Assembly (NCBI GenBank): GCA_030536995.1 | Contig: JAUNOY010000003.1 | Coordinates: 1 to 64,000 of the forward strand | Source of the DNA: Eubacteriales bacterium | GTDB lineage: Bacteria > Bacillota > Clostridia > Lachnospirales > Lachnospiraceae | Length of the DNA stretch: 64,000 bases | Reading direction: 5' to 3' | In this document: in pieces, positions 3,626 to 19,429 of the stretch | How the letters are laid out: every line of letters begins with the position of its first letter | Position numbering within the stretch: the stretch's first letter is position 1 | Position numbers and translations under genes: made by a program | Notes under the pieces: generated by a model | Told to the model about the DNA's origin: nothing | Seen by the model: the letters and a program-made list of their open reading frames with translations, nothing else | Databases searched by the model: none

Positions 3626-3629
3626 CTCA

Positions 3630-4334: not shown

Positions 4335-4421
4335 CCTTTTTCTCCTTCTCAAACATATAAAATCTGAATGTTCTTACATCCCAAAAATAACTTTCTTATT
4401 CATTGACTTTCTGTTTCCTGA

Positions 4422-4550
4422 TTACCGATACCATCCCAGAAGATTTCCCAGACTTTGGGATACCGTATTTTTTATAAGAATTCCTTTATAATGCTGACTC
4501 TGCATAGTAAACATCATAACATATAATTCCTGTTTTTTCTCATATATCAT
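4422..4550 (-). CDS. Possible 42-aa peptide in the regulator leader
   Basis: An ATG-initiated frame of 42 codons lies in the roughly 350-nt leader between the regulator's predicted promoter and its start. It begins MIYEKKQELYV and ends SQSLGNLLGWYR. The Shine-Dalgarno is weak: AGGAAG lies about 12 nt upstream. Peptide-sensing kinases often have their signal encoded nearby, so it is worth noting, but there is no clear double-glycine leader or AgrD-like pattern. It may be a chance frame. Confidence 0.22.
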   Translation of the reverse strand: MIYEKKQELYVMMFTMQSQHYKGILIKNTVSQSLGNLLGWYR

Positions 4551-4689
4551 GCTCTTTTTAGACTTCCTTTTATTTTTCTCTATTTTCGCCTATCTGATAG
4601 GCATAATACGCGTTTTACTTTTCTTATCAGTATTGATAAAATACCAGATAAGAGATTATTGTCATTTACAGGTTCTCTAATCAGGATTA

Positions 4690-4748
4690 ATTTTATTTCA
4701 TTTTTTATTTTTTTGCAGCAAATGTCCGTTAAAATACAGTTAAGTGTC
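4690..4748 (-). promoter_or_regulatory. LytTR-type direct-repeat promoter of the regulator-kinase operon
   Basis: On the minus strand the half-sites GACACTTAAC (4748-4739) and GACATTTGCT (4726-4717) are 22 bp apart. Exactly 31 bp from the second half-site start lies the -10 TAAAAT (4695-4690). There is no good -35, as expected of an activator-dependent promoter. On the plus strand the same stretch contains GTTAA at 11-bp steps. Start of transcription would be near 4683, leaving a leader of about 350 nt. The rest of 4551-4944 shows no gene. Confidence 0.6.
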
Positions 4749-4883
4749 CGTTAAATACCCTATTTGAGCAAATCTGCCGATATGGGGTATGCTGGCTTCC
4801 GGAGCCGGATGGATTTCTCTGAATTATGCCAGATTTGTTTCTGACAGTAATTTCTGAGTTCTCTGTTTTTCTTATCTCTTTTC

Positions 4884-4927
4884 ATAAAAAAACAGGGGCT
4901 GTCGGTTTTCCCGACATCCCCTGTTTC
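4884..4927 (-). terminator. Rho-independent terminator after the 4945-7125 gene
   Basis: On the minus strand AACAGGGGATGTCGG pairs with CCGACAGCCCCTGTT and is followed by a run of seven T. It lies 18 nt after the stop codon. Confidence 0.8.
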
Positions 4928-4944
4928 CATGTGACTGAAGCGTC

Positions 4945-7125
4945 TTATTTGATGGTTATTTTTATTGTTTTTGAATATGCGCCTTTTGTGGTGTGCTCAC
5001 CGTTTTCATCACGGACGATACTGCGCATACGGAAATAATAACTGTTATTTTTCTTTAAAGCTTTTGTGGTGTAACTTCCTTTCGTATCGGGAAGCCTTGT
5101 CAGTTGCTGATAGCTTTTATCTTTGGCATTGCGGTAGTAGATTATATATTCGCATTTCCCGTTCCGATAAGCAGCGGGAGTTGGTTTCCAGGTAAGTTTT
5201 GCTTTATAGCCTGAAACAGCCTGCACTTTCAGCGAAGGAGTTTTTGGAATGGTAAATGCTATAATCTGACTTTCATTATAGGCTGAATAGTAATTTTTAC
5301 CGTTCACTTTATTATAAGCCCGTACAATAACTTTATAACGCTGACCTGCTTCCAGTCCTTTAATGGTTACAGAACCAATCGTTTTTTTAACTGATACACG
5401 CTTAATGGTTTTTCCTGTATCACTATCCTTGACATAGACAATATATCCGTCAGGGGATATTTTCGCATGATTCCAGCTGCAGGTAAGAGAATCCTTTGTC
5501 CTGCCGGACAGCTTTACCCCTGTTACCGCTGCCGGACGGTAAACCTGTACCTTCTGTATCTCGGAAGGAAGACTGAAGAATTTTTTCTTTCCATCTTTGG
5601 CATATCCCCGTACACTGAGATAATAAGTTCCTTTCTTTACATTTTTGAAGGTAACCTTTGTAGTGTTTTTGTCTTTAAGAGTATATTTCTCAACACTGGG
5701 AACCGTCTGAGTTACCTCTTTATCACTCCGATCACGATAAAGAAATGTTTTTTCCGGTTTGATTCCAAGCACATAATCGTATGCATCTGCATATTTGTCC
5801 CTGTTTTCCAAAGTCACCGTTACTGTTGAACCATTTACAGTAACTTTACCGATTTTCGGCTGAACCGGTGTATTTATTTTAACCGTTGCTTTTTTCGGCG
5901 GACTCCATATTGTCCATGTTTTATCTTTTTTCAAACCACGGACACTGATATAATAATCTACGGCTTCAGATACGTATTGAAATTTCACTTGATTCTTCTT
6001 ATTGTCAACCTTTTGTTCAGTAAAAACTTCCGCCAGAATTAATTCATTCGGGTAGGACATATCAGGTTCCTCTGGTTCGTATTCAATAATCTGAGACAGT
6101 ACATATTCATATTTCACAATATCAGGATGCTCTCCCTCAATAGAAACATCGATGACATTTCCAGACACGACTGGTTTATTCAATTTAAGCACGGGGGTTT
6201 CTGCTGTTTTCCCGTTACTTCTAAATTTAATCCCCATGGAAGAAGCATAAGCCTCTGCATAAGAACCTGTCTCTCCAATAATCGTTATACTGTCTTCAAT
6301 TCCCCAGAAAGCGGTTGCAGATATCTCTTTCACATTGGAAGGAATATAAAGTTCTTTTAAACTGTAACAATTCTTAAATGCACCGTCATCAATCGCTTCC
6401 ACGCTTGTTCCTATATCCACTTTTTTTAAATTAATGCAGTCACTATACTCACTGGTTTTTATACGACGATAACCATTTCCCGTATGTACATATTCCAGCA
6501 TTTTACATTCGCTTGCTATAAATTCTCCATAAATCATTGAAATATGATCCGGAATAATAATCTCGCGGATGTTAGATTCTGCAAACATACAGGTTTCGTA
6601 ATAACCATCCCCTATCTCTCGAATGGTATCTGGGAATTTTACCCTTTCAACCTCATTGTACATCCATGGAAACTCAGTTACCGGTGTACCATATAACCCG
6701 CTCTTTATAGAAATATCTCCTCTCAGACCTGCTGCACTATACCAAGTTCTCTCGTTTCCTGAATACCGAACGCCGTCAATCTCTACCTTATCCTCTCCTT
6801 TGCCATTTACAGGACGTTCTCTTACTATCAGATTTATTTTTTCATTATCCTTAAGGTCATTATAAAGATAAGTGTAGCGATAACACTCAACGGTAAGCCC
6901 CTCACAGCCATCGAAGATATTTTTCCCTACCTCAAAGAAGGCTGATTCAACGGTTACTTTTTTCAGTTTTGTACAATTCTGAAAAGCTTTGTCTGCTATG
7001 GAGTATACAAACAAGTCTTTCGTTCCGTCACTGACGTATTCTTTCAGAGTAAGATTCTCAGGCACGTCCTCTGTGTAGCCTACGATTCCACAGGTATCCC
7101 TTCCGGTATCTTTGCGGTATATCAC
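4945..7125 (-). CDS. BspA-like LRR/Fn3 surface protein, main part (frameshifted from its signal peptide)
   Basis: This 726-codon frame starts at a GTG (7125) that overlaps the stop of the upstream signal-peptide frame. Residues ~15-330 contain BspA-type leucine-rich repeats (CTKLKKVTVES, CINLKKVDIGTSVEAIDDGAFKNCYSLKELYIPSNVKEI split across repeats). Three to four fibronectin-III-like modules follow, at about 340-440, 445-545, 545-640 and 640-726. The last two match the C-terminal pair of the 11550-15853 genes, ending YSKTIKITIK. There is no LPXTG sorting motif. Inserting one G so that GAGTGATA becomes GAGGTGATA joins the two frames into one open product. Either a recent frameshift or stop-start coupling is possible; the intact frame downstream argues for a recent event. 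The likely role is an extracellular adhesin. Confidence 0.85.
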   Translation of the reverse strand: MIYRKDTGRDTCGIVGYTEDVPENLTLKEYVSDGTKDLFVYSIADKAFQNCTKLKKVTVESAFFEVGKNIFDGCEGLTVECYRYTYLYNDLKDNEKINLIVRERPVNGKGEDKVEIDGVRYSGNERTWYSAAGLRGDISIKSGLYGTPVTEFPWMYNEVERVKFPDTIREIGDGYYETCMFAESNIREIIIPDHISMIYGEFIASECKMLEYVHTGNGYRRIKTSEYSDCINLKKVDIGTSVEAIDDGAFKNCYSLKELYIPSNVKEISATAFWGIEDSITIIGETGSYAEAYASSMGIKFRSNGKTAETPVLKLNKPVVSGNVIDVSIEGEHPDIVKYEYVLSQIIEYEPEEPDMSYPNELILAEVFTEQKVDNKKNQVKFQYVSEAVDYYISVRGLKKDKTWTIWSPPKKATVKINTPVQPKIGKVTVNGSTVTVTLENRDKYADAYDYVLGIKPEKTFLYRDRSDKEVTQTVPSVEKYTLKDKNTTKVTFKNVKKGTYYLSVRGYAKDGKKKFFSLPSEIQKVQVYRPAAVTGVKLSGRTKDSLTCSWNHAKISPDGYIVYVKDSDTGKTIKRVSVKKTIGSVTIKGLEAGQRYKVIVRAYNKVNGKNYYSAYNESQIIAFTIPKTPSLKVQAVSGYKAKLTWKPTPAAYRNGKCEYIIYYRNAKDKSYQQLTRLPDTKGSYTTKALKKNNSYYFRMRSIVRDENGEHTTKGAYSKTIKITIK

Positions 7126-7385
7126 TCGTAAACAAACTGATCGGAAGACAGCTCTGTCTCTGTAAAAACAGCGGATTCTGACAATACATCCGGTGTCTCA
7201 AACATGACTTCCGTTCCATCATCAAAGACGTTCTCAGTCAATTCACTTGAGGGAAGCTCTTCTGTCTGCCCTACAGTTCCGCCATCTGTAAACACATCCT
7301 TCTCCGACGCATACACCGATACCGAGAGCAGCGTTAACGTAATTGCAGCTGTCAACATAACATTTTTCAACTTTTTCATAAGCAT
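7122..7385 (-). CDS. Signal peptide and acidic linker of the split LRR/Fn3 surface protein
   Basis: The product is 87 aa from an ATG with AAAGGAGG six nt upstream. It carries a Sec signal peptide (MKKLKNVMLTAAITLTLLSVSVYA) and an acidic linker resembling the paralogues (VFDDGTEVMFETPDVLSES), then stops at FVYE. The stop overlaps the GTG of the next frame (GAGTGA). The signal peptide has no other purpose on its own, so I regard it as the 5' piece of the 4945-7125 gene. It is preceded by the direct-repeat promoter shared with the other surface genes. Confidence 0.75.
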   Translation of the reverse strand: MLMKKLKNVMLTAAITLTLLSVSVYASEKDVFTDGGTVGQTEELPSSELTENVFDDGTEVMFETPDVLSESAVFTETELSSDQFVYE

Positions 7386-7429
7386 TCCATGCCTCCTTTA
7401 CATGATAATTGGAATATATTTTATGTCTT

Positions 7430-7487
7430 ATTGTACCACAGGAGAAAATCATATTTGTAATATGACCTTTATCAGCCTTGAAATGAC
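7430..7487 (-). promoter_or_regulatory. LytTR-type direct-repeat promoter of the split surface gene
   Basis: On the minus strand GTCATTTCAA (7487-7478) and GTCATATTAC (7466-7457) are 21 bp apart, and the -10 TACAAT (7435-7430) starts exactly 31 bp after the second half-site start. This is the same geometry as at 4690, 11409, 13553 and 15652. Confidence 0.6.
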
Positions 7488-7540
7488 CTTGAAATGCTGT
7501 TGAGACTTGTTTCATAATAAATTTTCACCAGATTAGTAAA

Positions 7541-7582
7541 AATGATTCGTCCACTGCACTTTAATACAGTGGACGAATCATT
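7541..7582. terminator. Perfect 16-bp hairpin terminator
   Basis: AATGATTCGTCCACTG (7541-7556) pairs perfectly with CAGTGGACGAATCATT (7567-7582), with a 10-nt loop. On the minus strand it follows the 7598 stop and leads into five T. Confidence 0.8.
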
Positions 7583-7597
7583 GATTTATGACTTAGT

Positions 7598-9355
7598 TTA
7601 AATAAATGTTAAAGTATTTAAGGAATGATACATATCCTGACCGGAATTATCTTTACCCCTGTAACAGTTACCACACATAGTCATTTTTTTAGTTTTTTTG
7701 TTAATATCCATTGATTCTACTTCATAACTGTCGTATCCATCTAATGTAACTGAAATTACAAAATCAGGTGTTAAATTTCTGTCAGCAGAACCTTCCATTA
7801 CCCTTTCAATATCTTCTTTTGCTACATGATATATAATGCTGGTATTCTTCGTTTCTCCGTTTTTATCATATGCCGGTATAAACAAACCATAGCTTCTATG
7901 ATAATATACATCCTGAAGTGTTACATCATCTTTAGTTGCATTGATATCAACCAAAAACGGTTCCTGTTCTGTCATATTCCTTCCATCATAGACAGCTTTA
8001 TTAAAAGCAATTTTGCTGAAATCAACACGCTCCCTATTCATAATAATAAACTCGGACTCACCAGAATTATTACCATAATAAGCAATTCCATACTGTTTTT
8101 TCGTCAGACTTAACCGCCTGATTTCGTTTCCGTCAGGCGTTAAAATTGCCACATGACCTTTTTCTTCAGCTCCAGTTGCGTTGTCAAATGCATAGTAAGT
8201 AACATATAAATTATTATCATCCGGGTTGTAGGTCATTCCATTGCAATGATAAAGTCCGGTATTTTCTGTTTCACCAAATGTTGCAATCACATCCGGCACA
8301 ATGCTTTCCGGGTCCGGTGTCTTATGCAGTGTTGCGTATAAATTGTTTTTATCGCATTTCAAGCAGTAAGCTGTATCATTTGCATCCATAGCCATGCTCT
8401 GGACATTTGGAACAGGAATACCATTCATATTGACTGATGGGATTTTTGCACCGATTTTTACCGAGCCGTTAAATGTAAAATAACCGTTTCCAACTTTATT
8501 AAGATCCGCATGCCATTTTTGGAATTCGATTCCCGGCTGATATACAACACGATCTTTCAGGCTTTTATCGGTGAGGCCAATCACATTGGCAAAAACATAC
8601 ATGTTATTATTATATAAGGTAATACCTTCAAAATTAAACTGTTTGTATTTTTTGCTGTCCATATCTGCCTGAAAAACGGCAAACGGATGATAAGTTCCAC
8701 CTTCTGCGTATGTTGCTGCCTTTACCAGCAGAATCCGGTTTTTACAGGAACTGTAATCATTTATATAATGGTTCGTCAGAATAAACAGTCCATAGTTTCT
8801 GTCATAATAAATTCCGTTCGCTTTTTTATAATCTGTTGCTTCATTTGCCACAACACGGAAATGTATTCCTTTATTTACATTCACGTCCAAATTTTCCATT
8901 GAACCGATTACTAAATTAAACTCTGACGGATTATTCCTGTTAAGATATTCCATCAGAATAAATTCATCCGTTCTATAGCTTGCGATTCCCACATAAGTCT
9001 TAGCGAGTCTGACTTTTCCCAAAATAGTGCCGTCTAAGCCTAATTTAAGCAGATATGGAATGTTGCCGCTGTCTTTACACGTTAAATAAAGAATCTGGTT
9101 TTTAGCTGTCATTCCATAAACAAAATAGTCGAGTGTCGCAAAAACAGAAGACGAAGTGATTGTCCCTGATTTAAAATCGGTAGATTTTAATATCTTACTC
9201 TTACCATTGCTGTTCACTTTAGCAAAATACATAGTGCCGCCTATTCTTGCCATAGCAGCTGCATTTGAAAATCCTGAAGATGGATTATCAACTTCTGCTG
9301 CAAGTTTTGAACTGCAACTGATACGCAATTCTTTATCTGATATTGTTCCTGCCAT
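7598..9355 (-). CDS. Uncharacterised two-lobed beta-propeller-like protein
   Basis: This 585-aa protein begins MAGTISDKELRISC after AAAAAGGAG. I see no signal peptide, membrane segment or known domain. It looks internally duplicated: residues ~80-290 and ~350-560 share the order YGMTA/NGMTY, LDGTILGKVRLAKTYVGIASY / PDGNEIRRLSLTKKQYGIAYY, EFILME/EFIIMN, DRNYGLFI/HRSYGLFI. Such blade-like blocks suggest a beta-propeller or similar repeat fold. It is divergent from a holin-like gene with the Abi_2 module in between. A minus-strand promoter (TTGAAA, 16 bp, TATAAT) lies in the 64-bp repeat upstream. A cargo released by the holin is conceivable but speculative. Confidence 0.8.
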   Translation of the reverse strand: MAGTISDKELRISCSSKLAAEVDNPSSGFSNAAAMARIGGTMYFAKVNSNGKSKILKSTDFKSGTITSSSVFATLDYFVYGMTAKNQILYLTCKDSGNIPYLLKLGLDGTILGKVRLAKTYVGIASYRTDEFILMEYLNRNNPSEFNLVIGSMENLDVNVNKGIHFRVVANEATDYKKANGIYYDRNYGLFILTNHYINDYSSCKNRILLVKAATYAEGGTYHPFAVFQADMDSKKYKQFNFEGITLYNNNMYVFANVIGLTDKSLKDRVVYQPGIEFQKWHADLNKVGNGYFTFNGSVKIGAKIPSVNMNGIPVPNVQSMAMDANDTAYCLKCDKNNLYATLHKTPDPESIVPDVIATFGETENTGLYHCNGMTYNPDDNNLYVTYYAFDNATGAEEKGHVAILTPDGNEIRRLSLTKKQYGIAYYGNNSGESEFIIMNRERVDFSKIAFNKAVYDGRNMTEQEPFLVDINATKDDVTLQDVYYHRSYGLFIPAYDKNGETKNTSIIYHVAKEDIERVMEGSADRNLTPDFVISVTLDGYDSYEVESMDINKKTKKMTMCGNCYRGKDNSGQDMYHSLNTLTFI

Positions 9356-9434
9356 AATTTTTTCTCCTTTTTCTTTTTAATGTTATTTTATATATTCACC
9401 GGTGATACATTTTATAAAGAGTCATAAAAACTGA

Positions 9435-9498
9435 ATTTGTAAACAAAAAATTATATTTTTTATTTTTACAGTTTCAAGTTTACAAACAGATATCCCAA
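9435..9498. repeat. 64-bp exact direct repeat, copy 1
   Basis: This is identical to 10771-10834. It holds an inverted repeat TTTGTAAAC (9436-9444) / GTTTACAAA (9478-9486). On the minus strand it carries a promoter-like TTGAAA-16 bp-TATAAT pointing to the 9355 gene. The two copies bracket the Abi_2 gene and its small RNA. Confidence 0.9.
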
Positions 9499-9504
9499 CT
9501 TAAC

Positions 9505-9545
9505 AAAAAAAGCAGAAAGCATTCTTTTTACAGAAAACTTCCTGC
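9505..9545 (-). terminator. Rho-independent terminator after the Abi_2 gene
   Basis: On the minus strand GCAGGAAG pairs with CTTTCTGC (one G-U) and is followed by seven T. It starts 26 nt after the stop codon. Confidence 0.65.
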
Positions 9546-9570
9546 CATATTACTTATTCTTTATTTGGTT

Positions 9571-10527
9571 TTATAATTTGTATCTGCTTATACTCTTCCA
9601 GTTTTCAGGAAAGCCCATTGTTTTGAGAAATAAATCCTGACTTAGATTGCTCGTCTTTTTCATATACTGGTTAATTATATGATTCAAAGATTTTTTAAAC
9701 TCAGAAAAATCATCTTTTGCGAGCAACATTCGAAACGCAATCACAATAGAAAACAAATCGTTTTTTCTACATTCATATTTATTTCCATTCTGTGGAATTT
9801 TCATTTTTTTATGTAATGCAGTATCTGGAATATCAAACCTGCTCCTATATGAAAACAGTCTTTCATTATGGGCACAAACGTTTCTGTACAAAGTAAGCAC
9901 TTTCATATACTGGATCAATTCTTTTTCACTTACATGCTCAAAATGTATACTGATTTTCGTTTTCATGCTGGTTGTCAAAAATGAATACAGCTTTGACATT
10001 TGTCCAAATGTCAGGGTTTTCATAATGACCCACATCGGAACATTTCCATATGTTTTTCTTTGATAAACCACATATGCGTGATCCGTGTTTTTCTTTGCTT
10101 CTCTATCCAGTATGGCTATTAAACCAGCAATTTTCTTTTTATTTGCTCCTGAATTATTATAATGTGCAGCATCCAGATAATCCTCTTGTTTTTCTGAATA
10201 AGTATTACAAAAATGATAGGAAATCAGCGATCTCATTTTTTGCTCGAAATGACAGAGATACTGGAAAATCAATGCACGAAGCTTTTCATCAAATTCATAT
10301 AAAGCAACAATATCCTCAAAGGTTGTTCCTCTCCTGTATTTTCTTGTCATGGGGTTATAAAATAGATTTTTGTACCCATCTATCAGGGCAAAATAACTGA
10401 TGTCTTCTAACTTAGATGCTGCGAACTTACGGTCAGTAATAACCATCCCTTTTCGCTCAACGAGATTCTGGATTTGTTCTTCATAGTTCAAAAATGGTTT
10501 TATCGGTTTTAATGCTTTTTCTATCAT
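9571..10527 (-). CDS. Abi_2 (AbiD/AbiF-like) HEPN abortive-infection protein
   Basis: The product is 318 aa with start ATG at 10527 and AGGTG five nt upstream. The N-terminal region (IEKALKPIKPFLNYEEQIQNL, then DRKFAASKLEDISYFALIDGY) is typical of Abi_2 proteins. The catalytic HEPN motif R-x4-H is seen as R215-NVCA-H220, the RNase active site of this superfamily. Abi_2 proteins act as phage-triggered toxins that stop growth. Immediately upstream is a self-terminating structured RNA with its own promoter, the layout of an RNA-antitoxin/toxin pair. The module sits between 64-bp direct repeats, suggesting acquisition as a cassette. Family assignment is strong; RNA-based control is inferred from layout. 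Confidence 0.9.
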   Translation of the reverse strand: MIEKALKPIKPFLNYEEQIQNLVERKGMVITDRKFAASKLEDISYFALIDGYKNLFYNPMTRKYRRGTTFEDIVALYEFDEKLRALIFQYLCHFEQKMRSLISYHFCNTYSEKQEDYLDAAHYNNSGANKKKIAGLIAILDREAKKNTDHAYVVYQRKTYGNVPMWVIMKTLTFGQMSKLYSFLTTSMKTKISIHFEHVSEKELIQYMKVLTLYRNVCAHNERLFSYRSRFDIPDTALHKKMKIPQNGNKYECRKNDLFSIVIAFRMLLAKDDFSEFKKSLNHIINQYMKKTSNLSQDLFLKTMGFPENWKSISRYKL

Positions 10528-10558
10528 TTTTCACCTGCTATAAAAATCTGCTATATAG

Positions 10559-10626
10559 AAAAACGGAGGGCCCTCAGGTCCTCCGTCCGGTCGCAGGCAT
10601 CGCAAGTTTCTGCAACCTGATCACTG
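10559..10626 (-). ncRNA. Candidate ~68-nt structured RNA upstream of Abi_2 (AbiF-type RNA antitoxin?)
   Basis: From the predicted start near 10626 the RNA forms a first hairpin, GGTTGCAG / CTGCGACC (8 bp, one G-U, 13-nt loop). A terminator hairpin follows, ACGGAGG / CCTCCGT with five U, ending near 10559. It stops 32 nt before the Abi_2 start codon. Structured RNAs upstream of Abi_2 genes (the AbiF RNA motif) are, to my recollection, described; I cannot test this one against that model here. Position, promoter and terminator resemble type III toxin-antitoxin loci. Confidence 0.6.
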
Positions 10627-10632
10627 ACAGAT

Positions 10633-10661
10633 ATTCTAACACGAACCTTTATAAAAGGCAA
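10633..10661 (-). promoter_or_regulatory. Promoter of the Abi_2-associated RNA
   Basis: -35 TTGCCT (10661-10656), 17-bp spacer, -10 TAGAAT (10638-10633) on the minus strand. It drives the structured RNA, with read-through into Abi_2. Confidence 0.65.
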
Positions 10662-10770
10662 GTGCTTTTTGCGAACATTTGTCAGTATCTATTATATGCT
10701 TATTTTTATATCACATTCCCATCTTTCCCCCTTGTGTGCACCTATGTGAAGGACAACTTTATTAACAAAC

Positions 10771-10834
10771 ATTTGTAAACAAAAAATTATATTTTTTATT
10801 TTTACAGTTTCAAGTTTACAAACAGATATCCCAA
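10771..10834. repeat. 64-bp exact direct repeat, copy 2
   Basis: This is identical and same-orientation to 9435-9498, separated by about 1.27 kb that holds Abi_2 and its RNA. It forms the upstream region of the holin-like gene at 10883. Confidence 0.9.
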
Positions 10835-10882
10835 TGACTCCTTTTACAATGAAACAATCTATTTAGAAAGGAGGCGCCGTAC

Positions 10883-11122
10883 ATGGAGTCAACAATCCTC
10901 GATGCTGCTTTGTCTCAGGGAATATGGGCTGTGCTTGCAATCTTTCTTCTTATTTATATTGTTAAAGCAAACGAGAAACGTGACCAGAAACAGGAAGAAA
11001 GAGAAAAGAACTATCAGACTGTAATCGAAAAGCTTACAGAAAGTTTTCGCATACTGAATGAAGTACAAAAAGACTTACAAGAAATTAAGGACTGTATTTT
11101 GACAACAGAGAAAAAAGAATAG
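10883..11122 (+). CDS. BhlA/UviB-type holin-like peptide
   Basis: This 79-aa protein starts at an ATG nine nt after AAAGGAGG. One hydrophobic helix (IWAVLAIFLLIYIVKA, residues ~14-29) is followed by a highly charged coiled-coil tail (RDQKQEEREKNYQTVIEKLTES...). This is the pattern of the BhlA holin family, which includes the bacteriocin-associated UviB. These proteins permeabilise the membrane and help release phage or bacteriocin products. There are no phage genes around it. Its neighbours are the Abi_2 module and, divergently, the propeller-like protein, which might be its cargo (speculative). Confidence 0.85.
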   Translation: MESTILDAALSQGIWAVLAIFLLIYIVKANEKRDQKQEEREKNYQTVIEKLTESFRILNEVQKDLQEIKDCILTTEKKE

Positions 11123-11205
11123 TCCCCAAACGCAATTCCAGACATTTCAGTCTCAGGAAAATCTAAATTACAAATCGGTTTCAGCCCTGTGTTATCATGC
11201 AAATA

Positions 11206-11282
11206 TGAAAAATGAATCACAGCCAAACTCACTGCATATCGGAGCATATTCAAACATGCTTCGGGCTGTGATTCATTTTTCT
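11206..11282. terminator. Long inverted repeat downstream of the holin-like gene
   Basis: GAAAAATGAATCACAGCC pairs with GGCTGTGATTCATTTTTC across a ~40-nt loop. It has T or A runs at both ends, so it can act in both directions. Confidence 0.6.
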
Positions 11283-11299
11283 ACACCGTATCATATCTT

Positions 11300-11344
11300 T
11301 TGCGCCGGATGAAGACACACTTCCCCCCAATTTCTCCGGCGCAA
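11300..11344 (+). promoter_or_regulatory. Orphan copy of the conserved leader hairpin (copy 1)
   Basis: TTGCGCCGGA (11300-11309) pairs with TCCGGCGCAA (11335-11344) around a loop containing GACACACTTCCCCCC. No gene follows directly. The sequence after it (CAATCAAAAAGAGCG) resembles the Shine-Dalgarno region of the 15853 gene, so this looks like the leader of a lost surface gene, or a free-standing RNA. Confidence 0.5.
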
Positions 11345-11408
11345 TCAAAAAGAGCGCCTACCAGCTCTGATAGATGCTCTCTTACCTATTGCTATTTACT
11401 TGTCTTCT

Positions 11409-11468
11409 GTCAATCCTTTTCCCCTATAAAAGTCAAATTACAACCCCACTTTATTTCTATACTATAAT
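11409..11468 (+). promoter_or_regulatory. LytTR-type promoter of the 11550 surface gene
   Basis: The second half-site GTCAAATTAC (11432-11441) lies exactly 31 bp before -10 TATAAT (11463-11468). The upstream half-site is degenerate (GTCAATCC at 11409, 23 bp away). The block from 11427 to 11490 is nearly identical to 13569-13632. Confidence 0.5.
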
Positions 11469-11484
11469 ATAAGTGTAAAATTTT

Positions 11485-11527
11485 TATACCGGATGGACGA
11501 CACACTTCCCCAGAGTCCTCCGATATA
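11485..11527 (+). promoter_or_regulatory. Conserved leader hairpin (copy 2)
   Basis: TATACCGGATGGAC (11485-11498) pairs with GTCCTCCGATATA (11515-11527) around the loop GACACACTTCCCCAGA. It lies about 10 nt after the predicted transcription start and 22 nt before the start codon. Confidence 0.6.
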
Positions 11528-11549
11528 GCTATAGAAGGAGCGATTATTT

Positions 11550-13481
11550 ATGATGAGAAAAAATTTATGGTTGATTTGTGCCGCAGCCGCAGTTATGGCA
11601 GCAGGCAGCACCGTCTATGCCGCGGATTTCTCCGACGGTGAAACGCCGGTTATCAGCGCTGAAGAATCACAGCTTATGGATTCCGCAGAAATTTTTGACG
11701 ATGGAAACCTTGAAGAACAGGAACCGGTTTTCGGCGATACTGTTTCTGAAACGGAACTTCCGGCAGCAGAAGCTTCTGCCTCCTCTGTTCCTCTTGACGA
11801 GGCTCATTTTCCGAATAAGAAGTTTCGGGAATATTTAGCTACAAAGGATGAAAATAAGAATCAGATTCTTGACTGCAATGAAATCCAGCAAATCACCAGT
11901 TTGAACGCAGGAGATATCGGTACTTATCAAGATAACATTTCTATGGAAGGATATCAATATCTCACTTCTCTGGAGGATTTAACTCTTCTTATGGAGGGGA
12001 AGCATGATGTCTCTCTTACCCTTGATTTCTCATCCCTGCCAAATTTAAAAAAATTAAAGGTTAATCTGTTTTGCGACGATCCCTGGGAGGACGGTATCGC
12101 GTGGTCCACACCTGCAATCCTTTCTCTGACCTCCAACAGCCAGTTGGAAGACCTTACCGTTGACTGTGATGTGAGAGATATCCTCCTTCCGACAGACTGC
12201 AATATCCGGAAATACAGCATCAGTTGCTGGGATAGCGGCTACGATGACTGGGCAAATCATTCCCATGACAAAAATACCCCCAACCGCCTTGTCGATTTGA
12301 TTCCGCAGATGCCGGAGCTTGAAGAAATCTTTATTTCTAACTTTGGTTCCATTGCTCTGGACACCAGCAGAAACCCTCATTTAAGGATTTTAGATCTTGA
12401 TGGCACAGGTGACTGGGGTCTTTCTTCCCTTTTTGATTTCAGCAAAAATCCGGAACTCGAGGTTCTTCGTTTACACAATATGCCCCTGCTTCAGGATAAG
12501 TTGGATCTTTCAAACTGTACCAGACTGCAGACAGTTGATTTTACAAATCTGCGTACCAAGAAATCTGCATATGGCTCGAGTATTGAGGAGACTTTTTCAA
12601 TGATCGATCTGGGCAACTGCCATCCCAAGACTGTCCACGTAGTCTACGATGAATTGCACCATTCCGTTTCTTCCAGCGGTTATATTGATTTTTCCTCTAC
12701 AGATAACTGGAATCCGGATCGTCTCTGCCCAAATAATAATCGTGAAAATTTTGTTTTTCACGATTCCAAACTGTTCCCTGTCAATCTGGCAAACGACCAG
12801 CTCATACAGGGAGGCAAATTCTATTACTATCTGAATGATGCAAAAACTGCCGTTGCAGAAGTTCCGTTCACCATGACAGACATCTACAACCCGGAAATGG
12901 CCACCGGACTTACCGTAACAAAGAAATCCGGCACTTCCCTTACCTGTAAATGGAATCCTGTAAAAAGGCCCCATGACCGCTATGTTGTTTATCTTCAGGA
13001 TTCAAAAACAGATAAAACTATCAAACGGGTAACCTTAAAGAAAAACGTAACTTCCACAACCTTTAAGGGACTGAAATCCGGACAGAGATACAAGCTTGTA
13101 GTCCGCGCCTACCGAACCCAAAATAATAAAAATTACTACTCTCCACACTACGACGGCAATATTTACGACTTTACCATACCGAAAACTCCTTCAGTGAAGG
13201 CAAAACAGGTTTCTGACCGTAAGGTTAAGCTTTACTGGAAAAAGAATCCGGCGCCTTACCGTGACGGCATCAGCCAGTATGGAATCTACTGCCGTAAGGA
13301 AGGCGAGAAGTCGTATCAGAGAATAGCGAAACTTTCCGACACAAAGGACAGCTTTACTACGGGAAAATTAAAGAAAAATACCACTTATTATTTCCGTATC
13401 CGAAGCTTTATCAGAGAAGACCGACACGACAGCCCTACCTCCGGATCATACTCCAAAACCATTAAGATAACCATTAAATAG
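11550..13481 (+). CDS. Secreted LRR/Fn3 surface protein A
   Basis: The product is 643 aa with ATG after GAAGGAGCG. A signal peptide (~1-25, ending VYAAD) is followed by an acidic linker (to ~85). An HFPNKKFREYL segment with an EF-hand-like DENKNQILDCNE loop (~97-108) follows, then irregular leucine-rich repeats (~110-430: LDLSNCTRLQTVDFTNLR). Two Fn3-like modules (~445-535 and ~540-643) end in YSKTIKITIK. There is no sortase signal or transmembrane anchor. It is the first of a tandem trio; the first ~90 codons are almost base-for-base the same as in the 13693 gene. It is probably an adhesin or receptor on the cell surface, controlled by the LytTR system (inferred). Confidence 0.88.
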   Translation: MMRKNLWLICAAAAVMAAGSTVYAADFSDGETPVISAEESQLMDSAEIFDDGNLEEQEPVFGDTVSETELPAAEASASSVPLDEAHFPNKKFREYLATKDENKNQILDCNEIQQITSLNAGDIGTYQDNISMEGYQYLTSLEDLTLLMEGKHDVSLTLDFSSLPNLKKLKVNLFCDDPWEDGIAWSTPAILSLTSNSQLEDLTVDCDVRDILLPTDCNIRKYSISCWDSGYDDWANHSHDKNTPNRLVDLIPQMPELEEIFISNFGSIALDTSRNPHLRILDLDGTGDWGLSSLFDFSKNPELEVLRLHNMPLLQDKLDLSNCTRLQTVDFTNLRTKKSAYGSSIEETFSMIDLGNCHPKTVHVVYDELHHSVSSSGYIDFSSTDNWNPDRLCPNNNRENFVFHDSKLFPVNLANDQLIQGGKFYYYLNDAKTAVAEVPFTMTDIYNPEMATGLTVTKKSGTSLTCKWNPVKRPHDRYVVYLQDSKTDKTIKRVTLKKNVTSTTFKGLKSGQRYKLVVRAYRTQNNKNYYSPHYDGNIYDFTIPKTPSVKAKQVSDRKVKLYWKKNPAPYRDGISQYGIYCRKEGEKSYQRIAKLSDTKDSFTTGKLKKNTTYYFRIRSFIREDRHDSPTSGSYSKTIKITIK

Positions 13482-13488
13482 CAATATT

Positions 13489-13540
13489 CAACCCGAATTA
13501 CTACAGATTTTCTGTAAATAATTCGGGTTGATTTTAATTT
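13489..13540 (+). terminator. Rho-independent terminator after surface gene A
   Basis: CAACCCGAATTA (13489-13500) pairs perfectly with TAATTCGGGTTG (13519-13530), followed by a T-rich tail. Confidence 0.8.
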
Positions 13541-13552
13541 TGCAATTTCAAT

Positions 13553-13610
13553 GTCACTTAAGCGCCGATAAAAGACAAATTACAACCCCACTTTATTTCT
13601 ATACTATAAT
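13553..13610 (+). promoter_or_regulatory. LytTR-type promoter of surface gene B
   Basis: Half-sites GTCACTTAAG (13553) and GACAAATTAC (13574) are 21 bp apart. -10 TATAAT (13605-13610) starts 31 bp after the second. Confidence 0.65.
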
Positions 13611-13629
13611 GCAAATGTAAAATTTTTAC

Positions 13630-13666
13630 ACCGGATGGACGACACACTTCCCCAAAGTCCTCCGGT
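13630..13666 (+). promoter_or_regulatory. Conserved leader hairpin (copy 3)
   Basis: ACCGGATGGAC (13630-13640) pairs with GTCCTCCGGT (13657-13666). The loop is GACACACTTCCCCAAA. Compared with copy 2, a changed base restores pairing in the outer stem (CCGG/CCGG). Confidence 0.6.
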
Positions 13667-13692
13667 ATAGCTATAGAAAGGAGCGATTATTT

Positions 13693-15627
13693 ATGAAGAA
13701 AAAAAATTTATGGATGATTTGTGCCGCAGCCGCAGTTATGGCAGCAGGCAGCACCGTCTATGCCGCGGATTTCTCCGACGGTGAAACGCCGGTTATCAGC
13801 GCTGAAGAATCACAGCTTATGGATTCCGCAGAAATTTTTGACGATGGAAACCTTGAAGAACAGGAACCGGTTTTCGGCGATACTGTTTCTGAAACGGAAC
13901 TTCCGGCAGCAGAAGCTTCTGCCTCCTCTGTTCCTCTTGACGAGGCTCATTTCCCGAATAAGCTTTTCCGGGAATACTTATCTGCAAGAGACGAAAACAA
14001 AAACAATATTCTTGACAGAACTGAAATTGAAAAAATCACCAGTTTGAACGCGAAAGATATCGGTACATTGTATGATAGTTTCTCTATGGACGGCTATCAA
14101 TACCTGACTGCTCTGGAAGATCTGACCCTTCTGATAAAAGGAAATGATAACTCCAATCAGACAATCACTCTGGACTTCTCAACCTTGCCATCCCTGAAAA
14201 AGCTGGATGTAGACTTATATTCCATGAATCTTGAAGATGAGGTAAATAAATCGACCCCAGCCGTCCTCTCCCTCGTATCCAACAGGCAATTAACAGACCT
14301 CTCTGTTTCCTGCGACGTCAGAGGACTCCTTCTCCCGACAGACTGCGGTATTACAAATTACTCCGTAAAGTGCTGGAGTCCGTCTGGTGAACAGGAATGG
14401 TTCGACCACTCCCATGACAGTGATAAAAACCAGTTTCTTGAGCCTATCGCCCAAATGCCTCACCTTGATACTCTGTACATTTCCGGTTTCGATAATTTCA
14501 CTTTAAGCCCTGTCCACAACCCGGAACTCAGAATTGTAGATGTATACAACGGCGACCCTGATTTCATCCAGATATCTGCGGCCTTTGATTTCTCCCATAA
14601 TCCTAATCTGGAGATACTTCGTCTCAGAAGCGTACAGCTCATGCAGGACAAGCTGGATCTTTCCAACTGTACCAAACTTCAGACCATTGACTTTACAGAC
14701 TTTACCACACAGCATAATAATCTTGACTTCACAGTGGAAGACTTCGCAATGATCGACCTTGGAAACTGCCATCCTCAGACAGCCCGCGTGGTTTATGAAA
14801 AGCTTTCTCTTCCTGTTTCAAAGAGCGGATATATTGACTTCTCAAATACCCCCTGCTGGAATCCCGGCCGTATCCGGGAATATGGCAACGACGGCTTTGA
14901 ATTCCATGATTCCAAGATGTTTCCATCCGAACTTGGACGTGAGCAGGATCTGGTATCCGGATCGTTTAAATACTACCTGAACGATGCCCGCACAATTCTT
15001 GCGGAAGTTCCGTTCACCATGACAGACATCTACAATCCGGAAATGATCACCAGCCTTAAGGTAACAGAAAAAACAGAATCCTCCCTCACCTGTAAATGGA
15101 ATCCTGCAAAGAGAGCTCATGACCGCTATGTTGTTTACCTTCAGAATTCTGACACAGAGGAAACCATTAAACGTGTTACCTTAAAGAGTTCCGCAACTTC
15201 TACAACCTTCAAAGGACTCAAAGCCGGTCAGCGTTATAAACTGGTTGTCCGCGCTTATCGCACGGTAAACGGCGTAAATTACTATTCTCCTCATTACGAC
15301 GGCAATGTCATCTGCTTCACCACTCCTAAGTCTCCGACTTTAAAAGCAGACCTTAAGTCCAACCGTAAAGTGAAGTTTACCTGGAAAAAAACTCCGGCGG
15401 CTTACCGTGACGGCGAATGCCAGTACGTCCTCTATTACCGCACTTCTAAAGACAAGCACTATCAGCAGCTTGCCAAGCTTGCAGATACGAAACAGCAGTT
15501 TACTACAAAGAAATTAAAGAAAAATACAACCTACTATTTCCGTATGCGCAGTATCATACGCGATGAGGATGGAAATTACACGACCAAGGGTAAATTCACA
15601 AATACCATTAAGATTACTGTTAAATAG
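13693..15627 (+). CDS. Secreted LRR/Fn3 surface protein B
   Basis: The product is 644 aa with ATG after AAAGGAGCG. The domain order is the same as protein A: signal peptide, acidic linker (identical to A up to about residue 93), EF-hand-like loop DENKNNILDRTE, leucine-rich region with LDLSNCTKLQTIDFTDF, then two Fn3-like modules. The C-terminal end is KGKFTNTIKITVK. The LRR part has diverged from A while both ends are conserved, a pattern suggesting selection or gene conversion at the ends and diversification of the ligand-facing middle. It has its own promoter and leader hairpin, so the trio are separate transcription units rather than one operon. Confidence 0.88.
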   Translation: MKKKNLWMICAAAAVMAAGSTVYAADFSDGETPVISAEESQLMDSAEIFDDGNLEEQEPVFGDTVSETELPAAEASASSVPLDEAHFPNKLFREYLSARDENKNNILDRTEIEKITSLNAKDIGTLYDSFSMDGYQYLTALEDLTLLIKGNDNSNQTITLDFSTLPSLKKLDVDLYSMNLEDEVNKSTPAVLSLVSNRQLTDLSVSCDVRGLLLPTDCGITNYSVKCWSPSGEQEWFDHSHDSDKNQFLEPIAQMPHLDTLYISGFDNFTLSPVHNPELRIVDVYNGDPDFIQISAAFDFSHNPNLEILRLRSVQLMQDKLDLSNCTKLQTIDFTDFTTQHNNLDFTVEDFAMIDLGNCHPQTARVVYEKLSLPVSKSGYIDFSNTPCWNPGRIREYGNDGFEFHDSKMFPSELGREQDLVSGSFKYYLNDARTILAEVPFTMTDIYNPEMITSLKVTEKTESSLTCKWNPAKRAHDRYVVYLQNSDTEETIKRVTLKSSATSTTFKGLKAGQRYKLVVRAYRTVNGVNYYSPHYDGNVICFTTPKSPTLKADLKSNRKVKFTWKKTPAAYRDGECQYVLYYRTSKDKHYQQLAKLADTKQQFTTKKLKKNTTYYFRMRSIIRDEDGNYTTKGKFTNTIKITVK

Positions 15628-15651
15628 TATTTTATGAACCGTAATTTAACG

Positions 15652-15709
15652 GTCACTTCCGAACCTATAAGGGACATTTTGAAGAAAGCGTATTCGCCCA
15701 TGCTATAAT
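15652..15709 (+). promoter_or_regulatory. LytTR-type promoter of surface gene C
   Basis: Half-sites GTCACTTCCG (15652) and GACATTTTGA (15673) are 21 bp apart. -10 TATAAT (15704-15709) starts 31 bp after the second. The rest of this promoter differs from those of A and B, so the retained spacing is informative. Confidence 0.65.
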
Positions 15710-15788
15710 AGGTTATGGAAAAATAATTCCGGTTCATTCACTGCTTATTACATCAACCGCAATTATTTTTCAATCGTATCATATCATT

Positions 15789-15829
15789 CGCATCGGCAGA
15801 CAGCACACTTCCCCCAGTCTGCCGATGCG
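15789..15829 (+). promoter_or_regulatory. Conserved leader hairpin (copy 4)
   Basis: CGCATCGGCAGAC (15789-15801) pairs perfectly with GTCTGCCGATGCG (15817-15829) around AGCACACTTCCCCCA. The stem sequence is wholly different from copies 1-3, yet pairing and loop are kept. Confidence 0.65.
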
Positions 15830-15852
15830 ATTCAGAAAAGGAGCGATTATTT

Positions 15853-17766
15853 ATGAAGAAAAAAAATTTATGGATGATTTGTGCCACAGCCGTATCTATG
15901 GCAGCAGGCAGCACCGTATACGCCGCGGATTTCTCCGACGGTGAAGCGCCGGTTATAAGCGCTGAAGAACCACAGCTTATGGATTCCGCAGAAATTTTTG
16001 ACGATGGAAGCCTTAAAGAACAGGAACCGGTTTTCGGCGATACTGTTTCTGAAACGGAGCTTCCTCCCGCAGAAGTTACGGCTTCGGACGTTCCTCTTGA
16101 CGAAACCCATTTTCCTAATAACAATTTCCGGCAAATGCTTTCTCAGAAAGCTTTCGACCAGAACGAAAACGGTATTCTGGAAGCATCCGAAATTAAGTCT
16201 ATAACAAAAATAACCTCTGATACTCTAAAGGAATTCGGAGCGCCACTTTTCGAAACCTCTATGTACGGCTACCAGTATCTCACTGCTCTGGAAGAACTTG
16301 ACCTTCAATTCCCGGATGAGAATCTGCTCCCGGAATATGCAGTCCTTGACTTTTCCATGCTTCCCAATCTCCGGACTCTCAGTATCAGCACCTACTGGCA
16401 GGATTTCAGTACCGGGGACAGACAAGGCTCCTCCCCTGTAGCTATAAATCTTTCCGGAAATGCACGGCTGACAGATTTAACAGTTTCCTGTGATGTATCC
16501 ATTAAGGTCTTGCCTGCTGAATGTAATATCCGCACATACCGTCTGGAATGTTGGGCAAACGAATACTCCTTCAACCATACAGCCCATCCGGACAACACGG
16601 CTCACCTGTTGGATACAGTCCGTCATATCCCTTCTCTGGAAGAGCTTCGTATTGCCGCTTTCCCTAAGGTAATACCTGATACCTCAGGAAATCCTGCGCT
16701 GAAAAAACTTATTATCAGCGGACAAACGGAAACTCCTGCCGATGTAACTCTCGATCTTACTTCCAATGGGAATCTGACAGAACTCAGGTTGAGCAACTGC
16801 GCTTTGAATCAGTATACGCTGGATCTTTCCAATTGTACCAGAATGGAGAATCTGGAGCTGACAGACCTTCTTGTAAAGCCTACCTCCTCTGAGAATGGGC
16901 TTTCTTTCCTTGATCTGGGAAGCTGCAGTGCAAAAAATGTAACCATTTCCCAAATTGAAGCCTCCGTTAAAATCGGCACGGCAGGCTATCTGAACCTTCG
17001 CGATATCCAGAACTGGAATCCTGACCGTTTCAAAGACAGTTCCGGTTTTTACGTAAATAATTCCAAATTATATCCTGAAATGGACTCTGAACCGGTAGAT
17101 ACTATTACCTGTTATCTTAACGACGAAAAAACAATTGAAGCTAATTATCGCCTGTTTACAGGGCGCCTTCACAACCCGGATATGGTTTCCGGTCTTAAGA
17201 TAAAAGATAAAACTACCTCTTCTCTTACCTGTCAGTGGAATCCGGTAAAACGTGAGCACGACGGCTATGTGGTATATGTTCAGGACAGCGATACAAATGA
17301 AACTGTCAAACGCATAAAGGTAAAGAAATCTGCTACCTCTCTGAAGGTCAGTGGTCTGGAAGCAGGTCAGCTCTATAAGGTAGTTGTCCGCGCCTATAAC
17401 AAACATGATGGAAAAAATTATTATTCCACTCACTACAAGGGCAGCATTCTCTGCTTCACCGCCCCGAAAACTCCCTCGCTAAAAGCGGAGGTAACGGATA
17501 ACCGCAAGGTAAAACTCACATGGAAAAAAACTCCGTCTGCCTATCGTGACGGCTACAGCGAATATGTCATCTATTATCGCAATGCCAAAGACAAGAATTT
17601 CAAGAAGCTTGCTGAGCTTCCTGATACCAAACAGAAATTTACTACAAAGAAATTAAAGAAAGGCAATACCTACTATTTCCGTATGCGCAGCGTCATCTGC
17701 GACGAAGACGGAAATTACACCACTAAAGGCTCATACTCAGAAACAATCAAAGTAACCATTAAATAG
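15853..17766 (+). CDS. Secreted LRR/Fn3 surface protein C
   Basis: The product is 637 aa with ATG after AAAAGGAGCG. The signal peptide (MKKKNLWMICATAVSMAAGSTV) and acidic linker are close to A and B. An EF-hand-like loop DQNENGILEASE follows, then leucine-rich segments such as LDLTSNGNLTELRLSNC and LDLSNCTRMENLELTDL. Two Fn3-like modules end in KGSYSETIKVTIK. No cell-wall anchor is visible. It is followed by a good terminator. It resembles the 17919 protein in the LRR region (both have a SSENGLSFLDLG segment), so those two share a more recent common ancestor there. Confidence 0.88.
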   Translation: MKKKNLWMICATAVSMAAGSTVYAADFSDGEAPVISAEEPQLMDSAEIFDDGSLKEQEPVFGDTVSETELPPAEVTASDVPLDETHFPNNNFRQMLSQKAFDQNENGILEASEIKSITKITSDTLKEFGAPLFETSMYGYQYLTALEELDLQFPDENLLPEYAVLDFSMLPNLRTLSISTYWQDFSTGDRQGSSPVAINLSGNARLTDLTVSCDVSIKVLPAECNIRTYRLECWANEYSFNHTAHPDNTAHLLDTVRHIPSLEELRIAAFPKVIPDTSGNPALKKLIISGQTETPADVTLDLTSNGNLTELRLSNCALNQYTLDLSNCTRMENLELTDLLVKPTSSENGLSFLDLGSCSAKNVTISQIEASVKIGTAGYLNLRDIQNWNPDRFKDSSGFYVNNSKLYPEMDSEPVDTITCYLNDEKTIEANYRLFTGRLHNPDMVSGLKIKDKTTSSLTCQWNPVKREHDGYVVYVQDSDTNETVKRIKVKKSATSLKVSGLEAGQLYKVVVRAYNKHDGKNYYSTHYKGSILCFTAPKTPSLKAEVTDNRKVKLTWKKTPSAYRDGYSEYVIYYRNAKDKNFKKLAELPDTKQKFTTKKLKKGNTYYFRMRSVICDEDGNYTTKGSYSETIKVTIK

Positions 17767-17799
17767 TTTTCAGGAATCTTTTTTAAATATACTTCAAAG

Positions 17800-17832
17800 C
17801 AGGCCGGGATAATTTTCCCCGGTCTGTTTTTT
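17800..17832 (+). terminator. Rho-independent terminator after surface gene C
   Basis: CAGGCCGGG (17800-17808) pairs with CCCGGTCTG (17818-17826, one G-U), followed by six T. Confidence 0.85.
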
Positions 17833-17918
17833 AAGCAAAATGAACAAAATATGTGGAAATTCAGTCATTTTTGTATTATTATGTTACTATAAAGAATAAA
17901 CAAGGAAGTACACAACAT

Positions 17919-19418: not shown

Positions 19419-19429
19419 GCACCACATAC

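Follow-up and report, generated by a model that had tools for sequence, protein, structure and literature searches.

According to the available text of the respective reports, LytTR regulators bind direct repeats with 11–13 bp between them, and positive feedback was shown for HdrR (PMC6193735). The two 10-bp repeats used by SilA are separated by 11 bp, giving a period of 21, and inserting or deleting one base abolishes activation (PMC2766830). AgrA works through direct repeats located upstream of the promoters P2 and P3 (PMC4227749). In the window, by which we mean the whole stretch of 64,000 nucleotides analyzed here, and in other genomes, we found a motif consisting of TTnAnGGACAnTT twice, 21–22 bp apart and 30–31 bp before a −10, without a recognizable −35. 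We consider it very likely that its intact copies, together with one at a second regulator gene (regB, contig C15), serve as operator-promoters for a single family of LytTR response regulators, and that an AgrC/AgrA-like module thereby switches on its own operon as well as genes for secreted LRR/Fn3 proteins nearby.

The regulator of this module, regA (3630–4352, minus strand; by eye, an ATG at ~4334 is the likelier start), has a receiver (PF00072) and a LytTR domain (PF04397), both over cut-off, and of the proteins with solved structures ComE matches it best over the full length (4cbv, E 2.9e-10). Two AgrC-like membrane kinases are encoded on the same strand: k2 (2153–3625), with a GHKL ATPase domain (PF14501) over cut-off and a match to the AgrC model NF046015 (E 2.4e-8) that is below the cut-off of that model, and k1 (660–2156), which is 52% identical to k2. 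A preliminary description of this DNA had noted these duplicated kinases, to which a third, interrupted kinase gene has to be added: its 5′ part (1–650, minus strand) leaves the contig start into unrelated sequence, and the matching 3′ part is found beside regB, where contig C15 ends. Positions 4342–4541 (minus strand) hold the remnant of a ~184-aa helper gene, represented by N-terminal and C-terminal pieces only (tblastn with seven helper proteins, six of which match, E down to 9e-13); in many relatives this helper gene precedes the regulator. Within the window, regA is indeed the only LytTR gene, whereas a total of eight LytTR matches were obtained in the genome. The nearest own-genome relative of regA is regB, which, belonging to the same family, is an equally good candidate for binding the repeats.

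The five stretches were as first described, each with G(A/T)CA as the proximal half-site, at a distance of exactly 31 bp from a −10, and an upstream half-site at 22 bp (4690), 21 bp (7430, 13553, and 15652) or 23 bp (11409). The promoter of the regulator-kinase operon (4690–4748, minus strand) has GGACACTT and GGACATTT 22 bp apart and TAAAAT 31 bp after the second, this −10 being 338 bp upstream of the regA ORF. At 7430–7487 (minus strand), before the LRR_5/Fn3 gene 4945–7385, GGTCATTT and GGTCATAT are 21 bp apart and the −10 is TACAAT. The promoters of genes 13693–15627 and 15853–17766, at 13553–13610 and 15652–15709 (both plus strand), have TGTCACTT and AGACAAAT, and GGTCACTT and GGACATTT, respectively, in each case 21 bp apart and followed by TATAAT. 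The fifth stretch (11409–11468, plus strand), before gene 11550–13481, is a degenerate copy of the 13553 promoter that has kept the proximal half-site and the −10 and lost the upstream half.

The period is thus 21–22 bp in four of the five window sites, as it is in 17 sites from other genomes (20–23 allowed), and 20–21 bp in 15 relatives with sites found by a matrix of our own-genome sites. Spacing also differs within the genome, with 22 bp at 4690 and regB and 21 bp at the others, which contrasts with the one-base intolerance reported in the available text on SilA (PMC2766830).

In the window, the strict pattern of the preliminary description has four occurrences, all of them at sites on its list of five, compared with a mean of 0.03 and a maximum of 1 in 100 Markov shuffles of the window, a test that is not independent because the pattern was taken from the same sites. 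Two tests are non-circular, namely scoring the window with a matrix from other genomes and scoring relatives with a matrix from our own sites. The former matrix, trained on 17 sites that all come from other genomes (L057 was excluded as a near-copy of L056), ranked 4690, 15652, 7430, and 13553 first to fourth among ~128,000 window positions, with scores of 29.8, 23.1, 20.1, and 17.4; elsewhere in the window, no separate place scored above 8.1, and the maximum over 20 shuffled windows was 14.7. By contrast, 11409 scored −7.3, with 146 plus-strand positions above it. The highest-scoring own-genome site seen was that of regB (35.2), first spotted by plain pattern. An own-genome place with spacing 20 (L098) scored 20.4, above 7430 and 13553, but by eye it looks like the start of a coding sequence.

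With a profile model built from other genomes, E was 1.8e-6 for the 4690 site and 0.025 for the 7430 site, and in a search with filters off the 15652 site was third of 59 matches (E 0.098), among which the 13553 site was absent. With profile R1, built from 11 other-genome sites, the best own-genome place was the regB promoter (E 4.7e-4) and the second was 4687 (E 0.158), while 7427 was 11th of 17 and neither 13553 nor 15652 was among the matches listed, 150 of 2185 first-look candidates having been scored. The R1 own-genome matches with E of 0.18–10 were mostly low on matrix rescoring, three reaching 10–13 and one, L098, giving the score of 20.4 mentioned above. Another genome-wide profile search scored 150 of 1627 first-look candidates.

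The strongest columns of the repeat in the other-genome matrix are TTnAnGGACA. By eye, the ACAnTT part alone resembles published LytTR boxes, and the opposite strand fits about equally, so that the register and strand given here are provisional. Agreement with TTGACA at the −35 averages 2.8 of 6, compared with 2.46 at random places, i.e., none above chance, and a sigma-70 consensus scan of 3500–19500 missed the −10s of all five sites, which is what promoters without a −35 should give. Rfam gave no match in the window at gathering threshold. The inner half-site begins 31 bp before the −10, i.e., not at the usual LytTR distance upstream of a −35. The repeats had initially been described as LytTR-type, and their two-turn direct arrangement agrees with this, but they are closer to the −10, and to the start, by roughly a helical turn (about 10 bp) than the published positions for AgrA and for most LRS.

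The genes downstream of the sites other than 4690 encode LRR and Fn3 proteins. The BspA-type LRR_5 and Fn3 protein at 4945–7385 (minus strand) is split over two overlapping ORFs in different frames (7122–7385 and 4945–7125), the latter matching PF13306 (LRR_5) with E 3.7e-25. Three array proteins on the plus strand look secreted by eye: the Fn3 protein of 11550–13481, with a weak LRR match and 66% identity to the next copy; the Fn3/LRR-like protein of 13693–15627, with fn3 over cut-off and LRR_14 below; and the Fn3 protein of 15853–17766, 51% identical to 13693–15627. Two of the three match LRR_14 below cut-off only, and 15853–17766 is without an LRR match. The label "adhesin" would be a putative one, resting only on apparent secretion and domains. 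Enrichment of the pattern at LRR/Fn3 genes elsewhere had been set beforehand as a refutation test, and it was not seen: by matrix scoring, none of the three distant own-genome paralogues, on contigs C27 and C13, carried a site. Since these paralogues are without a site, the regulon looks local. In a duplicated gene pair (window 4945–9355 and contig C13, 71 and 67% identical), only one copy has the element.

One might ask whether the similarity between the promoters reflects recent duplication carried along with the gene family instead of shared regulation. Such copying has plainly occurred, as 11409 is 92% identical to the 13553 promoter over 106 bp, and because this similarity starts inside the spacer, between the half-sites, the copy at 11409 is missing the upstream half. 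Between the 7430 and 13553 promoters, a stretch of 41 bp covering the site is 78% identical (E 1e-5), so the earlier view that these promoters are otherwise unlike applies to the flanks, in which nothing was found, and not to the site itself. However, the sequences flanking the 4690, 15652, and 13553 sites have only short matches of 12–18 bp that are out of register, the C27 and C13 paralogues are without the element, and in other species the same element precedes regulators, LRR_5 genes, and SH3-type secreted proteins. We therefore regard duplication without shared regulation as highly improbable.

When relatives were scored with the matrix of five own-genome sites (the four intact window sites and that of regB), 15 of 18 had a site above all 100 shuffles in the 2.5 kb preceding the regulator, compared with 0 of 12 scorable unrelated LytTR loci (13 loci, one unscorable). 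Since ~1.5 kb upstream was scored in the unrelated loci and up to 2.5 kb in relatives, the comparison rests on the within-locus shuffles. In L058 the best match is in register one repeat downstream, and in L065, L066, L068, and L069 the site is followed first by a gene for a secreted protein and then by the regulator. The relatives include near-copies, namely L068/L069 and L056/L057, the latter both negative with this matrix.

Across 64 genomes of the genus, with 74 candidates scored per genome, profile R2 gave at least 20 matches with E ≤ 0.001 in 11 genomes. Of the 20 matches listed (16 training sites, 2 near-copies, and 2 new), 19 have a close regulator orthologue at a distance of between 23 bp and 11.3 kb. 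Matches were present in 10 of 12 genomes with a close regA orthologue vs. 1 of 52 without (Fisher p 4.6e-9), a count that is partly circular because the training sites were first found near regulators. In another species (G040), two LRR_5 genes start 41 and ~50 bp after a site. The analyses support a conserved two-turn direct-repeat element that appears to track the regA regulator family. The sites and their conservation thus uphold the proposal of a promoter element shared by the regulator operon and LRR/Fn3 genes, except at 11409.

With eight LytTR matches in the genome, the binder could in principle be one of the six other LytTR proteins and neither regA nor regB, and with the other-genome matrix two of their loci reached p 0.03–0.04 (scores 12.6 and 8.1). 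However, with the own-site matrix four of the five scorable loci had p > 0.2 and the fifth, a 218-bp stretch scoring 5.5, had p 0.02, so that none of these genes was convincing as a site carrier. Together with the tracking of close regA orthologues across the 64 genomes and the result for unrelated LytTR loci, this leaves another LytTR protein a very remote candidate.

A different factor of the locus, e.g., an antisense XRE-type (HTH_3) repressor or the TcdR/UviA-like sigma factor of G040, might also bind the repeats. XRE-type genes lie antisense between promoter and helper gene in 4 of 17 loci (L055, L057, L059, and L060; L062 was left out of the 18 relatives). HTH_3 is over cut-off in L055, L059, and, for L057, in its near-copy from G062, while the L060 leader gene matches XRE-type models only below cut-off; the sigma-like gene adjoins the G040 locus. 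Against this, the leaders of the other 13 loci and of the window operon have no XRE-type gene, XRE operators are usually inverted repeats, and alternative sigma promoters are not built as a two-turn direct repeat followed after 31 bp by a normal −10. We consider such a factor unlikely, and regA and/or regB remain the presumed binders.

In our proposed mechanism, an AgrC-type membrane kinase would sense a probably extracellular signal and phosphorylate the regulator, a dimer of which would bind the two half-sites two helical turns apart, the inner one in the place of the −35. The bound regulator could then recruit RNA polymerase to these promoters, in which a −10 but not a −35 can be recognized, with positive feedback on the regulator-kinase operon, and switch on the secreted LRR/Fn3 proteins encoded within ~12 kb, which might act at the cell surface. 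A circuit from signal through kinases and LytTR regulator to adhesins had been suggested before. The kinases and the element linking the parts fit it, whereas regB has to be added, the regulon seems to be local, and AgrB (PF04647) had no match in the own genome (assembly ~92% complete; no control genome above cut-off). Nor was a signal peptide gene recognized here, unlike in the streptococcal bacteriocin and competence systems.

Lanthipeptide loci seem to be a common setting of the module in relatives, as pointed to by LanM after the module in all seven of the relatives scanned (7 of 18). LanM had no match in the own genome, and no control genome passed the family cut-off. We tentatively suggest, with somewhat more doubt than confidence, that a module presumably controlling lanthipeptides in related Lachnospiraceae was rewired here to a local secreted LRR/Fn3 cluster, the inner repeat replacing the −35. 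Possible signs of this are the lack of a LanM match, the helper remnant, the interrupted kinase gene, and the element copies at LRR/Fn3 genes; at least one other species likewise has LRR_5 genes that follow the element.

If the proposed mechanism is true, cell-to-cell or environmental signaling would control secreted LRR/Fn3 proteins in Blautia-type gut bacteria, and the operator sequence would be specific enough to suggest controlled genes. The element also offers a testable candidate binding site for a LytTR family that several gut bacteria carry next to lanthipeptide genes. In the portions of the open-licence literature searched, we found no mention of the motif or of a link between regulator and LRR/Fn3 genes.

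Among known systems, the agr P2/P3 promoters of Staphylococcus aureus are alike in having a LytTR response regulator with an AgrC-type kinase, upstream direct repeats, autoactivation (proposed here), and promoters that need an activator (a suboptimal spacer in agr, no recognizable −35 here). However, AgrA repeats are given as centered near −60 (PMC4227749), compared with about −49 here, no AgrB was found in the own genome, and the proposed targets are secreted LRR/Fn3 proteins. The LRS systems HdrRM and BrsRM likewise have autoregulatory direct repeats, mostly with 12 bp between, upstream of their own operon, but according to the available text those repeats are mostly 10 bp before the −35 (PMC6193735), which the inner repeat replaces here, and the LytTR protein of LRS is paired with a membrane inhibitor, whereas the present module has a receiver domain and kinases. 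In gut Lachnospiraceae, nisin O and ruminococcin A are comparable as lantibiotic loci; the nisin O cluster is described with two regulator-kinase pairs, but the terms LytTR and direct repeats are absent from the available text (PMC11811420). In Clostridium acetobutylicum, the LanM-type gene CA_C0082 directly follows an AgrC/AgrA-like pair, although its product is reported to be without conserved catalytic residues and the system to have an AgrD-derived signal (PMC10301443), while LanM was not found here. Finally, the streptococcal bacteriocin and competence promoters of ComE, BlpR, and SilA appear, by eye, to share an ACAnTT-type half-site, to which the present element adds a conserved TTnAnGG before ACA and, in relatives, a module beside class II lanthipeptide synthetases.

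The window covers the first 64 kb of contig C31 in an assembly of 2.83 Mb. Each of the five candidate promoter elements in the window, named by start coordinate as 4690 and 7430 (minus strand) and 11409, 13553 and 15652 (plus strand), contained the half-sites and -10 assigned to it by the preliminary description when the sequence was read back. The window contains four instances of the strict half-site/-10 pattern, coinciding with the four sites described as complete, whereas 100 shuffles averaged 0.03. Since that pattern was derived from the same sites, further tests were built to be independent of it. Close orthologues (46–56% identical) of RegA, the LytTR response regulator encoded at 3630–4352 (minus strand), are present in 11 further genomes assigned to the genus and also, among named organisms, in Blautia wexlerae, B. 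schinkii, B. caecimuris, Parablautia and several uncultured Lachnospiraceae, and many are preceded by a GGACA direct repeat with a 21–22 bp period and then a -10. A matrix of 17 sites upstream of the relatives' regulators, with none from the window genome, ranked 4690, 15652, 7430 and 13553 first to fourth among about 128,000 window positions (29.8, 23.1, 20.1, and 17.4); the next separate place in the window scored 8.1, and 20 shuffled windows reached at most 14.7. With default filters, a profile of 11 other-genome sites (R1) returned 4690 and 7430 as the only window matches at E ≤ 10, and in an unfiltered search of the first 30 kb its three best matches out of 59 were 4690, 7430 and 15652, with neither 13553 nor 11409 among the 59. 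A further site, outside the preliminary description and first spotted by the pattern, precedes regB, the gene of a second, related regulator on another contig (C15:314155–314227; score 35.2 with the others-only matrix, R1 E 4.7e-4).

In the opposite direction, a matrix of five own-genome sites (4690, 7430, 13553, 15652, and that before regB) was run over up to 2.5 kb of sequence preceding the regulator in 18 named relatives, and in 15 of them it detected a site scoring above all 100 shuffles; at loci L056 and L057 the right place ranked best without being significant against the shuffles, and at L062 no site was found within 2.5 kb upstream. Of 13 loci encoding unrelated LytTR regulators, 12 could be scored, and none of these gave a p below 0.11. 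A profile of all sites (R2), searched under strict filters in 64 genomes with 74 candidates scored per genome, yielded 20 matches at E ≤ 0.001 spread over 11 genomes. A close orthologue of the regulator is present in 12 of the 64 genomes, the own genome counted, and 10 of these had a match, vs. 1 of the 52 lacking one (Fisher p 4.6e-9); for 19 of the 20 matches a regulator gene is located at a distance of 23 bp to 11.3 kb. Given these filters and candidate numbers, and because 16 of the matches are training sites and two are near-copies, the count supports specificity rather than discovery. In two genomes without an R2 match (G011 and G013), a variant site precedes an SH3-type secreted-protein gene adjoining the regulator. 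In the own genome, R2 recovered five sites at E ≤ 3.6e-6, all used in training, and no other scored candidate fell below E 0.068. The repeats might serve another factor of the locus, or be bound by another LytTR protein, and both explanations fit these cross-species data less well than recognition by RegA and/or RegB.

Promoter duplication as the source of the similarity likewise fits the cross-species data less well. The 11409 and 13553 promoters are 92% identical over 106 bp, with the similarity starting between the half-sites; 11409 retains the inner half-site and -10 of 13553, its upstream half is lost (matrix score −7.3), and at most a weak response would be expected of it. The description of 7430 as otherwise unlike 13553 needs qualifying: no similarity was found in the flanks, but around the site itself the two are 78% identical over 41 bp.

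The most informative matrix columns read TTnAnGGACA, followed by a weaker nTT. The inner half-site starts 31 bp ahead of the -10 at each of the five window sites; among the 17 other-genome sites, for which 30–32 bp was allowed, the distance is 30 bp in 4 and 31 bp in 13. Taking the -10 as position −12, the repeats lie at about −64 to −56 and −43 to −35, and thus the inner repeat occupies the −35 place, where TTGACA matches were near chance. The repeat period is 22 bp at 4690 and regB and 21 bp at the other sites, which counts against a rigid complex; SilA activation, by contrast, was abolished by one base added or lost (PMC2766830).

A helper protein of ~184–222 amino acids (recognised by eye; no Pfam match in two members scanned) is encoded first behind the site at 8 of 17 loci examined in relatives, with the genes for the regulator and an AgrC-like kinase next. 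LanM, a class II lanthipeptide synthetase, comes after the module in each of the seven relatives scanned (TIGR03897 over cut-off). The 338-bp leader in the window contains two broken pieces of this helper gene at 4342–4541 (6 of 7 helper queries match, E down to 9e-13), and 4690 is therefore probably the inherited promoter of the regulator operon. The operon has two complete kinase genes, 52% identical to each other, and a third is interrupted at contig ends, with parts at the start of the window's contig and at the end of C15, adjoining regB. At both of these contig ends the gene runs into CAGTTTACAAGGRACTACAC-type sequence (window 1–100; L006:7215–7275, end of C15), in opposite directions and pointing outward, resembling by eye the two inverted ends of one inserted element. 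Neither LanM nor AgrB was found in the own genome, the assembly being ~92% complete and the controls not establishing sensitivity.

At 4 of the 17 loci (L055:6990–7328, L057:6218–6631, L059:7003–7473, and L060:6997–7344), the 410–470-nt leader that separates the LytTR promoter from the helper gene carries an XRE-type gene in antisense orientation, and therefore transcription of the operon would oppose that of this gene. A BhlA holin-like gene (PF10960) is found at 10883–11122 in the window; a BhlA-like gene also occurs by eye near the LanM locus in relatives such as G040 and G062, with endolysin-like and sigma-like genes nearby.

The own genome holds eight LRR/Fn3 genes at E ≤ 2e-74, three with a full site, one with a degenerate site and one in the window (17853) without a site. 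The expected genome-wide enrichment of sites at such genes was not borne out, as none of the three outside the locus (two on C27, one on C13) has a site, and hence the regulon looks local. The three array proteins (11550–13481, 13693–15627, and 15853–17766, plus strand) have clear Fn3 matches and, by eye, signal peptides, with LRR_14 below cut-off in two and no LRR match in the third; calling them adhesins is a guess. A 585-amino-acid protein without a Pfam match and an LRR_5/Fn3 protein are encoded as a pair both in the window (4945–9355) and on C13 (L116:8360–12692), with 67 and 71% identity, and the element lies between the two genes in the window copy but not in the C13 copy, making the two pairs, at the sequence level, a natural comparison for its presence. 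The window LRR_5/Fn3 gene is split near 7122 into overlapping frames (7122–7385 and 4945–7125), reflecting a frame shift, decay or assembly error; its C13 relative is a single open frame of 819 amino acids. An Abi_2 gene (9571–10527) is flanked by a perfect 64-bp direct repeat (9435–9498 and 10771–10834), as if it had arrived or been duplicated as a unit.

Elsewhere, two LRR_5 genes in G040 lie directly behind sites that are themselves 1.5 and 4.9 kb from a regulator gene. In B. schinkii a site precedes a YfhO gene, and 175 bp after that gene starts an LRR_5 protein of at least 1123 amino acids. Other genes behind sites encode secreted SH3-type proteins, and in G003, which has a more distant regulator, what by eye is an AgrB-like gene follows the site. 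Near more distant regulators (32–35% identical), a GGACAGTT pair with a 22-bp period occurs at L050:8364–8422 and L051:12771–12829, the genomes being G002, where by eye an ABC-type gene follows, and G056. The pair is close to the AgrA box, ACAGTTA.

Taken together, a kinase most likely passes a signal to RegA and/or RegB, which would bind the repeats and recruit polymerase, resulting in positive feedback and expression of nearby secreted proteins. Searches of open-licence papers turned up neither the half-site nor its placement over the −35 nor an association with LRR/Fn3 and LRR_5 genes; the kind of system is already known. Positive feedback through such repeats was shown for HdrR (PMC6193735), and by analogy may extend to RegA and RegB. 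AgrA repeats are reported to centre near −60 (PMC4227749) and LRS repeats to lie mostly 10 bp before the −35 (PMC6193735), in both cases further upstream than in the present element. The offset from these reported LytTR promoters is about one helical turn, and the same face of the DNA would thus presumably be presented.
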